Origin: Tribonema minus
Taxonomy: Eukaryota > Sar > Xanthophyceae > Tribonematales > Tribonemataceae
Reading direction: 5' to 3'
DNA: 64,000 bases
Assembly (NCBI GenBank): GCA_017506865.1
Contig: JAFCMP010000015.1
Span: 1-64,000 of the forward strand
The translations under genes were made by a program, and so were the position numbers. The number at the start of each line of letters is the position of its first letter. The first letter of the stretch is position 1. Positions 8,348 to 55,376 of this stretch are shown piece by piece. Below the pieces are notes generated by a model. The model saw only the letters and a list, made by a program, of their open reading frames with translations, did no database searches and was not told the origin of the DNA.

Positions 8348-8365
8348 CTGCTGCTGCTGCTGCTG
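8348..8365. repeat. (CTG)6 block at the CAG-to-CTG switch
   Basis: Six CTG units follow the CAG array directly, then CTTGTAAC opens the left arm. CAG next to CTG is a self-complementary dyad with no spacer and could extrude as a hairpin or cruciform. The mirror junction on the right (55371-55376) has only two units, so the two junctions differ in length while the arm sequence beside them is the same. Confidence 0.95.
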
Positions 8366-9650
8366 CTTGTAACTATACCGCAGTAATATAAAAGCTTAGC
8401 CATAATAGTTGAGCTCAATCTGAGCTTTTAAAACTAGGTTTGATAAACACGTCATTGGTTGGCCCACTAAAGTAAACGGCTCGTTCTGATTGGCCGGTGC
8501 GGTCATACCCGACCTAACCGGTCAAGATTTATGCACATTTATGGGATAAGTGCGTAAACCAAGCAGGATAGTACACGAACTAGTGCCAGCGTTTATATAA
8601 GTTTATAAAAGTTTTATAAATGTGGGTTATCTCATGCTGCTTGCTACGATCGCTGAGGAGAGCCAAGAATTCTACGCTACAAGCCCTTCACAAGTCGCCT
8701 CGGTCAGTTCATGCACAGATCGAATAAAATTTATGCCACACCCCCGCGAAGATGTATAAAAACATCAGTAACTTCTGATTCAACGGACACGCAGATGGAC
8801 ATGGCTTGTCAAGGTCGATGGCGCTGCAGGAGAGCTCTCAAGACGCCTCCATTTGTTTATTGCTCAGTGATATGAAGTGGATACGCAAGCCTCGATGAGG
8901 AAGTTATTCAATCTACAATTACGGCAATGCTGTTGGCATAACTTACCGAGAGTGATGGCGCTGCAGACGATCTCTCAAGTCACCTCCTGATCCGGAGTCG
9001 GCCAACAAGGCTGCAACAAATACTGCTCAGCAGGCATAGTGTGGTGCTCAGCAGAAGTATGTTGTCACGTCCGTATCGGCTGCTTCATGCCGGTAAGTTA
9101 TATCGCGAACGTATGAGGAAAAATGCCACGTGCATAACAGCCCTGGTGCTCAAAGGGAGAGAGGCCCGCTGATAGTCAGGAGGACGGAAAGCCTGGTCCC
9201 ACCCCAGCAACCGATAGGAGTATATGGCCCTACATGGAGTTTTAGCAGAGGCAGGTGCAGGTGAATAAACGTCCCTTTCTATACAGCAGCAGCAGCAACC
9301 GGGGCAGCATCAGCAGCGAGAGGCCGGACAGCAGCGGCGGAGAAAGGCGGGCGTGAAGCATCTTGTTAGTCAAATTACTGCGGTCGCAGCTGCTAATTGG
9401 GGCACGCCTGCTTGTGACGCTTGGGTACTCTTGTAGCTGATTTGAGCGGAGCACTAGCAGCCTTGCGAGGCACCAACTCAATAAGCCCTGTGCGCTACTT
9501 TGTCACGACTCTCTGCCTTGCGCCGTGTTTGATCAGTGCTGTCGACTCCTTGTCTGTCAGATTTGACACAGTCGTCCCTTTCCCGTCGTTCCTTGCAGCA
9601 GGCACCGGCATTCCACGTGAAAATTCTGCATCTTTGCTAGCAGCAGCAAC
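8366..9650. other. Outer left arm without recognised gene
   Basis: AT-rich stretches with TATA-like words lie near 8592-8620 and 8754-8760, followed by about 900 bases of mixed composition. The short frames around 9240-9675 are not recognisable, although they are conserved in the right arm, as is everything here. It could hold the promoter and 5' leader of the coiled-coil gene that starts at 9651. No transcription start is evident. Confidence 0.5.
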
Positions 9651-10053
9651 ATGGAGGCAGCAGAAGGAGCAGTAGTAGCTGCAGCCGCAGCAGCACCACA
9701 ACCACCACCAGCAGCAGCAGCAGCACCAGCACCAGCAGCAGCACTGACAGGTGGCAGCAGCTCCGATGGTTTGGAGCAGCAGCTGCGTGATGTCGACACT
9801 GAGATCAAGAAGGTGGGGGGGCAGATTGAGAACTTGGAGAAGGAGATCGACCAGGTCATGGTGGCCCTGGAGAAGCAGCAACCTTACCGTGGCATGAACG
9901 TGGAGGAGCTCAAGGAGGAAAAGAAACAGCTTAGGGAGGAAAAGAAACAGCTCAGGGAAAAAGAGAAACAGCTGCGCAGGAAAGAGGAATTGCTCCTTGA
10001 GGGCAACGCCAGGCTGAGGGACAGGGAGGCCATGCCGTCACCACCTGTGCCAG
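9651..10053 (+). CDS. CRN-like gene, left copy, exon 1 (coiled coil)
   Basis: ATG in the context AGCAACATGG opens 134 codons plus one base, ending at a good donor (CAG|GTGAGC). The product starts with about 35 residues rich in Ala and Pro, then a Gln/Lys/Glu heptad region of about 85 residues with tandem EEKKQLRE-type repeats, a strong coiled coil. Such Lys/Glu/Gln coiled coils precede the effector or nuclease part in many Crinkler-like proteins of chlorophytes and chytrids (family knowledge, recalled). Phase 1 at the donor matches the acceptor at 10547. The frame-continued end at 10100 is intron read-through. The right-arm copy lacks one residue in the Ala/Pro tract. Confidence 0.65.
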
Positions 10054-10546
10054 GTGAGCTGGCACTGAAGCATTTTATTTTGCTGCCAAACCTTGCGTGA
10101 TGGCGTGTGCTTACAGCTTTTCCTTGGCATGCACTGCTGCACATCGTAACGCATCACACGACAGCTTGACTGACTCATGTGTGCGCATTGCTGATGACTG
10201 AGTCGGGCTGTGAGCTTCCTGCATGGCAGGAAACTACGACTGCTGGATTCTGGGCGGTCAGAAGACCGTTGATCATTCCGATAGGCTGAGGGTGTAAATA
10301 TGGCATGTGAACTTGTTGTCAAGCCAAGGTTATCACCTTCTGAAGGACCAACAACACGCATGCACATGATTATGCAAGTTATGTCGGGGATGTTCTTTTG
10401 CTCAGCATTGGCATTACATATTCAACTTCCTCCAGTTCACATTGTAACGTTTTGTGCTGCTGACACGTCGTCGCACCATGTGGTGCTTGTTGCTGCAGCA
10501 GCAGCAGAACAGTTACATAATCATCGCGCTAACAACTCCTTGGCAG

Positions 10547-10662
10547 GTGTGACTGTTGAAGTCAAAGCATCTGTTCTCACTGCTGTATCCAGCCGCTACC
10601 AGCTCAAGACGAGTGCTGTGGCACCCTTGCTGCTTTTGAACCGTGTATACTTACGTGAATAG
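10547..10662 (+). CDS. CRN-like gene, left copy, probable exon 2
   Basis: The acceptor CTTGGCAG|GTGTGAC supplies the two bases needed after exon 1, and the open frame runs 38 codons (VTVEVKASVLTAVSSRYQLK near its start) to a TAG at 10660-10662. An alternative is that splicing occurs earlier at CCGT|GTATAC near 10638 and continues into the next segment, where 10677-10800 encodes a Ser/Pro/Ala-rich stretch. The segment is conserved in the right arm at 53194-53079 with V to A changes. The exact 3' boundary is not resolved. Confidence 0.4.
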
Positions 10663-53078: not shown

Positions 53079-53194
53079 CTATTCACGTAAGTATACACGG
53101 TTCAAAAGCAGCAAGGGTGCCACAGCACTCGTCTTGAGCTGGTAGCGGCTGGATGCAGCAGTGAGAACAGATGCTTTGACTTCAACAGTCACAC
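53079..53194 (-). CDS. CRN-like gene, right copy, probable exon 2
   Basis: Counterpart of 10547-10662, with the same acceptor and frame and a V to A change. The same uncertainty about its 3' boundary applies. Confidence 0.38.
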
Positions 53195-53687
53195 CTGCCA
53201 AGGAGTTGTTAGCGCGATGGTTATGTAACTGTTCTGCTGCTGCTGCAGCAACAAGCACCACATGGTGCGACGACGTGTCAGCAGCACAAAACGTTACAAT
53301 GTGAACTGGAGAAAGTTGAATATGTAATGCCAATGCTGAGCAAAAGAACATCCCCGACATAACTTGCATAATCATGTGCATGCGTGTTGTTGGTCCTTCA
53401 GAAGGTGATAACCTTGGCTTGACAACAAGTTCACATGCCATATTTACACCCTCAGCCTATCGGAATGATCAACGGTCTTCTGACCGCCCAGAATCCAGCA
53501 GTCGCAGTTTCCTGCCATGCAGGAAGCTCACAGCCCGACTCAGTCATCAGCAATGCGCACACATGAGTCAGCAATGCTGTCGTGTGATGCGTTACGATGT
53601 GCAGCAGTGCATGCCAAGGAAAAGCTGTAAGCACACGCCATCACGCAAGGTTTGGCAGCAAAATAAAATGCTTCAGTGCCAGCTCAC

Positions 53688-54087
53688 CTGGCACAGGTGG
53701 TGACGGCATGGCCTCCCTGTCCCTCAGCCTGGCGTTGCCCTCAAGGAGCAATTCCTCTTTCCTGCGCAGCTGTTTCTCTTTTTCCCTGAGCTGTTTCTTT
53801 TCCTCCCTAAGCTGTTTCTTTTCCTCCTTGAGCTCCTCCACGTTCATGCCACGGTAAGGTTGCTGCTTCTCCAGGGCCACCATGACCTGGTCGATCTCCT
53901 TCTCCAAGTTCTCAATCTGCCCCCCCACCTTCTTGATCTCAGTGTCGACATCACGCAGCTGCTGCTCCAAACCATCGGAGCTGCTGCCACCTGTCAGTGC
54001 TGCTGCTGGTGCTGCTGCTGCTGCTGCTGGTGGTGGTGGTGGTGCTGCTGCGGCTGCAGCTACTACTGCTCCTTCTGCTGCCTCCAT
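53688..54087 (-). CDS. CRN-like gene, right copy, exon 1 (coiled coil)
   Basis: Counterpart of 9651-10053, with the same start context and donor. It is three bases shorter through loss of one codon in the Ala/Pro tract. The charged heptad repeats are unchanged. Between this 5' part and the exon at 44422 lies TE2. Confidence 0.62.
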
Positions 54088-55370
54088 GTTGCTGCTGCTA
54101 GCAAAGATGCAGAATTTTCACGTGGAATGCCGGTGCCTGCTGCAAGGAACGACGGGAAAGGGACGACTGTGTCAAATCTGACAGACAAAGAGTCGACAGC
54201 ACTGATCAAACACGGCGCAAGGCAGAGAGTCGTGACAAAGTAGCGCACAGGGCTTATTGAGTTGGTGCCTCGCAAGGCTGCTAGTGCTCCGCTCAAATCA
54301 GCTACAAGAGTACCCAAGCGTCACAAGCAGGCGTGCCCCAATTAGCAGCTGCGACCGCAGTAATTTGACTAACAAGATGCTTCACGCCCGCCTTTCTCCG
54401 CCGCTGCTGTCCGGCCTCTCGCTGCTGATGCTGCCCCGGTTGCTGCTGCTGCTGTATAGAAAGGGACGTTTATTCACCTGCACCTGCCTCTGCTAAAGCT
54501 CCATGTAGGGGCCATATACTCCTATCGGTTGGCTGGGGTGGGACCAGGCTCTTCGTCCTCCTGACTATCAGCGGGCCTCTCTCCCTTTGAGCACCAGGGC
54601 TGTTATGCACGTGGCATTTTTCCTCATACGTTCGCGATATAACCTACCGGCATGAAGCAGCCGATACGGACGTGACAACATACTTCTGCTGAGCACCACA
54701 CTATGCCTGCTGAGCAGTATTTGTTGCAGGCTTGTTGGCCGACTCCGGATCAGGAGGTGACTTGAGAGATCGTCTGCAGCGCCATCACTCTCGGTAAGTT
54801 ATGCCAGCAGCATTGCCGTTAATTGTAGATTGAATAACTTCCTCATCGAGGCTTGCGTATCCACTTCATATCACTGAGCAATAAACAAATGGAGGCGTCT
54901 TGAGAGCTCTCCTGCAGCGCCATCGACCTCGACAAGCCATGACCATCTGCGTGTCCGTTGAATCAGAAGTTACTGATGTTTTTATACATCTTCACGGGGG
55001 TGTGGCATAAATTTTATTCGATCTGTGCATGAACTGACCGAGGCGACTTGTGAAGGGCTTGTAGCGTTCTTGGCTCTCCTCAGCGATCGTAGCAAGCAGC
55101 ACGAGATAACCCACATTTATAAAACTTTTTAAAACTTATATAAACGCTGGCACTAGTTGTGTACTATCCTGCTTGGTTTACGCACTTTATCCCATAAATG
55201 TGCATGAGTCTTGACCGGTTAGGTCGGGTATGACCGCACCGGCCAATCAGAACGAGCCGTTTACTTTAGTGGGCCAACCAATGACGTGTTTATCAAACGT
55301 AGTTTCAAAAGCTCAGATTGAGCTCAACTATTATGGCTAAGCTTTTATATTATTGCGGTATAGTTACAAG
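54088..55370. other. Outer right arm without recognised gene
   Basis: Mirror of 8366-9650. Small differences are a TAGGTCGGGT-flanking substitution set and a changed word beside GTTTATCAAAC. It would hold the 5' region of the right CRN-like copy. Confidence 0.4.
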
Positions 55371-55376
55371 CAGCAG
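55371..55376. repeat. (CAG)2 block at the right CAG/CTG switch
   Basis: GTTACAAG is followed by two CAG units and then the CTG array. This mirrors 8348-8365, where the equivalent block has six units. Confidence 0.93.

Follow-up and report, generated by a model that had tools for sequence, protein, structure and literature searches.

The locus raises the question whether two long inverted arms, each ending in a triplet array, exist as such in the Tribonema minus nuclear genome, and whether they represent a new kind of element or a known process. The analysed window comprises 64,000 nucleotides, positions 1-64000 of contig C15, position 1 being the contig start. Positions 8361-18262 aligned to the reverse complement of 29493-55375 over 9,489 bp with 98.5% identity, 109 mismatches and 13 gap openings. 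The alignment consisted of four blocks (98.4, 98.8, 98.5 and 100% identity), which is far above chance, and a pair of long, highly similar, oppositely oriented copies within a contig is what characterizes an inverted segmental duplication. The original prediction described a ~47 kb palindrome. Its inverted arms are real, but the 11.2 kb centre has no mirror, which makes the structure a spacer-containing inverted repeat rather than a palindrome. The more than 60 kb of symmetry claimed for the window comes down to ~50 kb for the arms with their insertions plus the arrays, and instead of two insertions three were counted, two in the right arm and one in the left (Table 1).

Table 1. Positions of the features in the window.
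Feature	Position	Strand	Remarks
(AGC)n array	1-8348	+	Outer side lost at contig start
Left arm	8349-18262	+	Opens with six CTG units
Open frame, coiled-coil-like	9621-10097	+	Candidate first exon of arm gene; all Pfam matches below cut-off
MITE-like 434-bp insertion	11531-11964		Left arm only; 57-bp inverted ends, 88%
Diverged eukaryotic 18S rRNA fragment	12322-12654	+	Model positions 52-430, 51.4 bits
Block with coding-type conservation	14048-14407	+	Codon-position changes 11/11/27 against C26 paralogue
Block with coding-type conservation	15312-15815	+	Changes 15/14/32 against C26; stop at end shared
Inner breakpoint	18262/18263		Left arm ends ...CCAGTGCA, then TGCAA (5 bases); core-like from 18268
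Asymmetric core	18263-29492		11.2 kb, no mirror counterpart
ORF with weak PDZ similarity	20103-21008	-	Below Pfam cut-off
Foldback insertion	21823-22232		In core; 86% self-complementary; present on C122, absent from C9
Right arm	29493-55375	-	Reverse complement of left arm; holds two insertions
9.5-kb insertion	29783-39326		Right arm; outer 21 bases inverted, 90% identity
Mirrored 18S-like piece	44604-44853	-	
6.9-kb insertion	44924-51795		Right arm; 9-bp target duplication CGAAAAATT
ORFs of 6.9-kb insertion	45554-46720, 46960-47868, 50075-51241		Second with R3H domain
(GCT)n array	55376-61516	+	2,046 CTG repeats without interruption
Outer flank	61517-64000		124-bp and 29/58/87-bp tandem repeats

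The predicted opposite polarity of the two outer arrays, (AGC)n on the left and (GCT)n on the right, was confirmed. Positions 3377-8347 of the left array are 1,657 perfect CAG repeats. The outer ~3.4 kb carries 28 small, mostly indel-like interruptions, as expected at a poorly covered contig end. With 1,657 and 2,046 uninterrupted units both arrays are expanded CAG/CTG tracts, for which hundreds of such repeats or more are characteristic. After the CAG array the left arm opens with six CTG units followed by TTGTAACTATACC, which constitutes a switch of polarity. Uninterrupted CAG/CTG tracts also occur elsewhere in the genome, with 847 repeats on C9, 1,384 on C122 and 341 on C5. The C5 tract sits within an open frame that would be translated to 342 glutamines. 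A permissive Rfam scan also linked the arrays to isrG and microRNA families; these matches were dismissed as low-complexity.

The arms appear to carry a gene. In two blocks, changes relative to a paralogue on C26 are concentrated at one codon position; the C26 counterpart of the first block has two stops close to its end, and that of the second has one further stop close to its start. A search of solved structures with one probable arm-gene exon gave a best E of 0.53. Among 13 open frames scanned, no transposase, integrase or polymerase domain scored above the Pfam cut-off.

A genome search for further arm copies, which the original prediction had proposed, found them on C9, C122, C13 and C225. 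In the stretches read, C9 (40 kb) and C122 (30 kb) contain single arms with array tips, and on C13 (30 kb) such an arm is truncated. The C9 stretch also holds a small CTG array between the unit and a sequence with a putative retrotransposon reverse transcriptase motif. Contig C26 carries a separate, diverged inverted pair of a 72-77% paralogue, whose own arms are 98.1 and 99.4% identical; no array of at least 10 repeats was found in that 20 kb stretch. These copies bear on the claim that the arrays belong to the symmetric unit. In its favour, of the six copies in which the outer arm end is nearly full-length, five adjoin an array; the two arms of the window, C9 and C225 all have the CAG-to-CTG switch beside that arm end; and the outer flank on C225 is inverted as well. 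In the stretches read, mirror and array are nevertheless separable, as the array-tipped single arms and the array-free C26 pair indicate. The switch is missing in the C122 copy and in the copy at 97 kb on C15, and was rejected on this ground as the seed of all copies.

Distances between copies were compared in three segments, A, B and O. The left and right arms differ by 1.60, 0.84 and 0.91%, respectively, and the remaining pairs among the two arms, C9 and C13 by 0.78-1.71%. In two of the three segments, though not in the third, the arms resemble each other a little more than they resemble the copies elsewhere. The left-right distance is the lowest only in O, and in A the nearest relative of the left arm is C13 rather than the right arm. 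Over the three segments, only 4 derived sites are shared by both arms but not by C9 or C13. There is thus no clear sign of arm-to-arm conversion.

At the inner junction, the 5-base filler repeats the adjoining TGCA. The core part 18265-21763 is present on C9 and C122 at 98% identity, preceded there by a different spacer, and the 18262/18263 junction is absent from the C9, C122 and C13 copies, whose sequence differs at this point. Near-complete copies of 18263-21763 were found on C15, C9 and C122 only, among 40 of 82 candidates scored.

Contig C225 may continue C15 to the left. The arms can be told apart at 43 columns; C225 has the left-arm state in 42 of these and the right-arm state in none, the odd one being a gap in C225. 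One array-edge indel accounts for 11 of the 42 agreements. Private columns of C225 number 24, of which 20 are gap-type and 4 are adjacent mismatches. Since C225 tracks the left-arm variants, the reading that it is a homologue of the right end was set aside. Its CAG array of ~10.5 kb, with sequence read at the ends only, is followed by the inverted outer flank: C225:35837-36201, 1-4096 and 4197-9133 match the reverse complement of C15:61517-61884, 84001-88097 and 78970-83900 at 99%. C225 stops 1.8 kb past the array, in the arm, and C15 starts inside the array, so that the putative link is made through ~1.8 kb of arm plus the array. If it holds, each side would measure ~57 kb. The overlap indirectly favours the presence of both arms on a single molecule. 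C225:1-36201 exceeds C15:61517-88097 by about 9.6 kb, and among 31 of 339 candidates scored for C15:64001-71000 no C225 match was listed.

Taken together, the sequence comparisons suggest that the locus is probably a real inverted segmental duplication in the nuclear genome, built from a dispersed gene-bearing unit with an expanding CAG/CTG tip. A mirror produced by a folded read with a missing adapter was rejected on account of the 109 substitutions, the gap openings, the insertions whose sites are empty in the other arm, and the 11.2 kb spacer. A misjoin, in which the assembler placed two homologues or paralogues (core-arm-CTG-flank) head to head so that the mirror is present in no molecule, is less likely than a real duplication but keeps a small, real chance. 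It would fit the contig ends in or near the arrays, the junction unlike that of the other copies, and the retention of at least one redundant contig in the assembly (C338 fully matches C468, with 100% identity across 3,937 bp). The left arm, however, sits at the core end opposite to the usual arm attachment, an arrangement that no simple graph error would produce and that would require chimeric reads. Moreover, no spare core copy for a second homologue appeared among the 40 of 82 candidates scored, and C15:104001-111000 showed no second allele: none of its 23 candidates, all scored, is a second full-length copy, the next longest match being 185 bp. Together with the C468/C338 identity this makes the ~1.5% divergence of the arms look unlike ordinary allelic difference. 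The C26 pair, itself also assembled sequence, provides a second inverted arrangement.

That pair, the dispersed copies of similar divergence and the position of the small C9 array beside the reverse-transcriptase-like stretch could also be expected if the locus were a transposable element whose terminal inverted repeats are giant and whose outer ends are the CAG arrays. We regard such an element as very improbable, given the domain scan of the 13 frames and the one-armed copies in the stretches read on C9, C122 and C13. In an element of this type the mirror stops at the tips with a target-site duplication; here the flank on C225 is inverted past the array, so the mirror does not stop at the arrays. 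An rDNA-type palindrome, brought to mind by the 18S-like fragment in both arms, is scarcely credible. The fragment spans only ~330 bases and is 75% identical to the canonical 18S of the genome on C259, which scores 1,012 bits. The rRNA-family scans yielded partial SSU matches only and no reported LSU or 5.8S match, rather than the complete rRNA genes per arm of such palindromes, and chromosomal-type flanks extend further. As its parts occur separately elsewhere in the genome, the locus looks like an unusually large instance of known processes, not a new kind of element.

For the inverted duplication we propose the following order of events. The family unit would consist of the core followed by the gene-bearing arm, with a CAG/CTG array as its outer tip, and in several copies this array reached kilobase length. 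Flank, array and arm may then have been copied and joined in inverted orientation near the core start at 18262/18263, end joining or a template switch during replication being the likeliest mechanism. Transposable elements would have entered the two arms independently after the duplication. Growth by hairpin-driven slippage or repair is known for CAG/CTG tracts and could have enlarged these arrays, which would travel with the arm. In a more speculative scenario, to which we give a slim chance, the array itself drives rearrangement: it expands to kilobases and causes replication to stall or break, after which fold-back repair starting from the array repeatedly copies the adjacent gene segment, the CAG-to-CTG fold-back switch being a feature of the younger copies. 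The arrays would then cause gene amplification, giving dispersed and inverted copies, instead of being mere passengers. The copies without a switch on C122 and at 97 kb on C15, and the C26 pair without an array, count against this scenario.

We found no comparable structure in the open-access literature at the level of titles and abstract beginnings. Y-chromosome palindromes are interrupted palindromes, or inverted segmental duplications; in them, as in the window, a spacer without symmetry separates long, nearly identical arms that carry genes. Here the arms are 98.5% identical and array-tipped. The palindromic rDNA of Tetrahymena, Physarum and Dictyostelium likewise has inverted arms with an rRNA-like stretch, whereas in the window no complete rRNA gene was found, telomeric ends were not seen and the arms lie within longer contigs. 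Most striking is that pure CAG arrays of kilobase size occur at several loci. Expanded CAG/CTG repeats are typical of myotonic dystrophy-type loci, and the most familiar pure tracts that reach thousands of units are human disease alleles. The window resembles these in its pure, hairpin-capable tracts of hundreds to thousands of repeats, and differs in that several loci of one reference genome are affected, the tract occupying a set place in a duplicated unit; in four copies the arm edge bears a CAG-to-CTG switch. With several such tracts, some edging duplicated segments, this eukaryotic genome of 158 Mb offers a natural system for studying tract growth, tolerance and chromosome breakage. Should the arrays prove to promote duplication, there would be a link between triplet expansion and gene amplification outside disease. 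(CAG)/(CTG) hairpins are linked to repeat expansion in a published account (PMC12708500). Large natural CAG accumulations on chromosomes have been described in fish by FISH (PMC3462698); those are hybridisation signals, whereas the arrays described here are known as base-level sequence and are associated with duplicated segments.

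Contig C15 measures 521,824 bp, and the window covers its first 64 kb; the assembly totals 158 Mb in 554 contigs. Self-comparison with the CAG/CTG arrays masked gave four collinear inverted blocks. Together these align 9,489 positions of the two arms at 98.5% identity, the differences being 109 mismatches and 13 gap openings. The original prediction of a palindrome therefore holds for the arms but not for the centre, since positions 18263-29492 had no mirror counterpart in the window. Likewise, the two insertions that it recognized are present in the right arm, but a third occurs in the left arm. 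An R3H domain is encoded by the 6.9 kb right-arm insertion (44924-51795). Adjoining the right array, 61885-63236 contains 124 bp tandem repeats (3.1 copies, 92% matches) and repeats of 29, 58 and 87 bp.

Features of the inverted repeat (window positions)
Feature	Position	Remarks
(AGC)n array	1-8348	left
Coiled-coil-like frame	9621-10097
Diverged 18S rRNA fragment	12322-12654 and 44604-44853	beside coding-type gene, both arms
Right-arm insertion	29783-39326	outer 21 bases inverted, 90% identity
Right-arm insertion	44924-51795	9-bp target duplication CGAAAAATT; empty site in the left arm
Left-arm insertion		434 bp; inverted ends of 57 bp; empty site in the right arm
(GCT)n array	55376-61516	right

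The arms were compared with their paralogue on contig C26. Coding-type conservation was found at 15312-15815 and 14048-14407, with 15/14/32 and 11/11/27 changes per codon position, while 12815-13180 showed no coding-type bias (19/24/24). Near the block ends the C26 copies carry one and two extra stops, respectively, which may reflect exon limits or decay. No Pfam family scored above cut-off in the arm frames. The genome is eukaryotic, as shown by a canonical eukaryotic 18S gene at the end of C259 (1,012 bits; the match spans bases 26-1406 of a 1,406-base stretch).

The right array contains 2,046 repeats without interruption. The left array has 1,657 perfect repeats on the arm side and an outer 3.4 kb with 28 mostly indel-like interruptions. 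Across the genome, (CAG)34 has 11,983 start sites on the forward strand and 8,678 on the reverse, equivalent to about 62 kb of array; arrays elsewhere measure 847 (C9), 1,384 (C122) and 341 (C5) repeats and 684 bp (C13). At the array/arm boundary CAG switches to CTG in four copies, and (CAG)23 followed by CTGCTG occurs at eight genome sites: both C15 arms, C9, C225 and four further places, C237:29135, C445:1904272, C523:668577 and C541:416297. In two more distant copies, C122 and C15:97 kb, CTG meets the arm edge directly. At C13:249056-249739 eight CTG units precede the CAG array, and the arm joined to it is truncated at window position 10187. A 123-bp CTG array at C9:264537-264659 is fused to a sequence whose motif seems to resemble that of a retrotransposon reverse transcriptase, followed by the repeat unit. 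An open frame of 720 codons at C5:380864-383023 contains that contig's 341 uninterrupted CAG repeats; the predicted protein would carry a run of 342 glutamines, an S/P/Q-rich flank and G/S-rich sequence further on.

For the outer arm end (8361-9861), 40 of the 876 candidates were scored, and near-full-length copies among them lie at six places: C15 left, C15 right, C225, C9, C122 and C15:97048-98553. Five of the six adjoin a CAG/CTG array of more than 60 bp, and the last terminates in a short CTG followed by a CCGCTG tract. C122 also has a counterpart of C15:79-98 kb, with about 97-99% identity. On C9 and C122 a common spacer of ~3 kb and a CTG array precede the core start (18265 onward), with no inverted arm ahead of it in the stretches read, and on C13 the arm leads into the core, as the right arm does in the window. 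The family unit therefore has the order CTG - spacer - core - arm - CTG. In the window the left arm ends with CCAGTGCA at 18262, followed by the five bases TGCAA and, from 18268, the core shared with C9. This junction (18262/18263) is the odd one among the copies examined.

A second inverted pair lies at C26:426001-446000 (pair extent 426001-443142), where two inverted copies of a 72-77% arm paralogue flank a spacer of about 4.6 kb. Identity between the two copies is 98.1% in one block and 99.4% in another, and one copy has an insertion of about 1.07 kb. Another copy of the arm family occurs at C26:416746-418049. The C26 region contains no CAG or CTG run of at least 10 units, so an inverted pair can exist without arrays. 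Since C9, C122, C13 and C5, as far as they were read, carry arrays but no pair of inverted arms, array and mirror are separable. The earlier claim that the arrays belong to the symmetric unit fits the two window arms, and the array flank recurs inverted on C225 too, but elsewhere in the family arrays and mirror also occur apart.

Pairwise distances among the left arm, right arm, C9 and C13 were 0.78-1.71% over three segments and nearly star-like. In segment A the left and right arms differed by 1.60%, the left arm being closer to C13 (1.49%); in segment B the arms differed by 0.84% and C9 and C13 by 0.78%; in segment O the arms were the closest pair (0.91%). Derived sites, counted where both outgroups (C122 and C15:97 kb) agree, numbered four for the two arms together and one each for C9+C13, right arm+C9, left arm+C9+C13 and both arms+C9. 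C15:97 kb is much closer than C122 to all four copies in segment B, which suggests that copies have exchanged sequence.

Contig C225 ends at 48,519, about 1.8 kb within the arm. Aligned four ways, C225 agreed with the left arm at 42 of the 43 columns separating the arms and with the right arm at none, the remaining column being a gap in C225. Its array runs from 36204 to about 46727, as read at 36204-36698 and 45243-46727, and past it the right-array flank was found inverted (517 of 523 positions identical). Because the left-arm columns agree and this flank recurs inverted, C225 would most simply continue C15 leftward. Joined in this way, the mirror would extend about 57 kb per side. C225 1-4096 and 4197-9133 match the reverse complement of C15:84001-88097 and 78970-83900 at 99%. 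The flank on C225 exceeds the C15 flank by about 9.6 kb, and a query with C15:64001-71000 gave no C225 match among the matches listed (31 of 339 candidates scored).

Judged from the sequence, the inverted duplication in the window is probably real. The alternative, an assembly misjoin, would agree with contig ends falling in or near an array and with a window junction that differs from the other copies examined. However, the arms differ by true substitutions and one-sided insertions, the C225 overlap follows the left arm, and the side of the core to which the left arm attaches also argues against a misjoin, as does the existence of the C26 pair. Furthermore, no second full-length copy of C15:104001-111000 was found among the genome matches, and the one redundant contig compared (C338, with C468:829902-833838) was 100% identical over 3,937 bp. 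A misjoin is accordingly the less probable reading.

For a genuine duplication, an inverted join that has a short filler would fit end joining or template switching. Breaks induced by the arrays may have led to the duplication, although the C26 pair has no array. The arrays would most likely grow through hairpin-driven slippage or repair; a review links (CAG)/(CTG) hairpins to expansion (PMC12708500). No paper found in the open-access literature searched appeared to describe such a structure. In kind it is ordinary, an inverted segmental duplication with transposon insertions and triplet expansion; the scale and combination of these parts are unusual.
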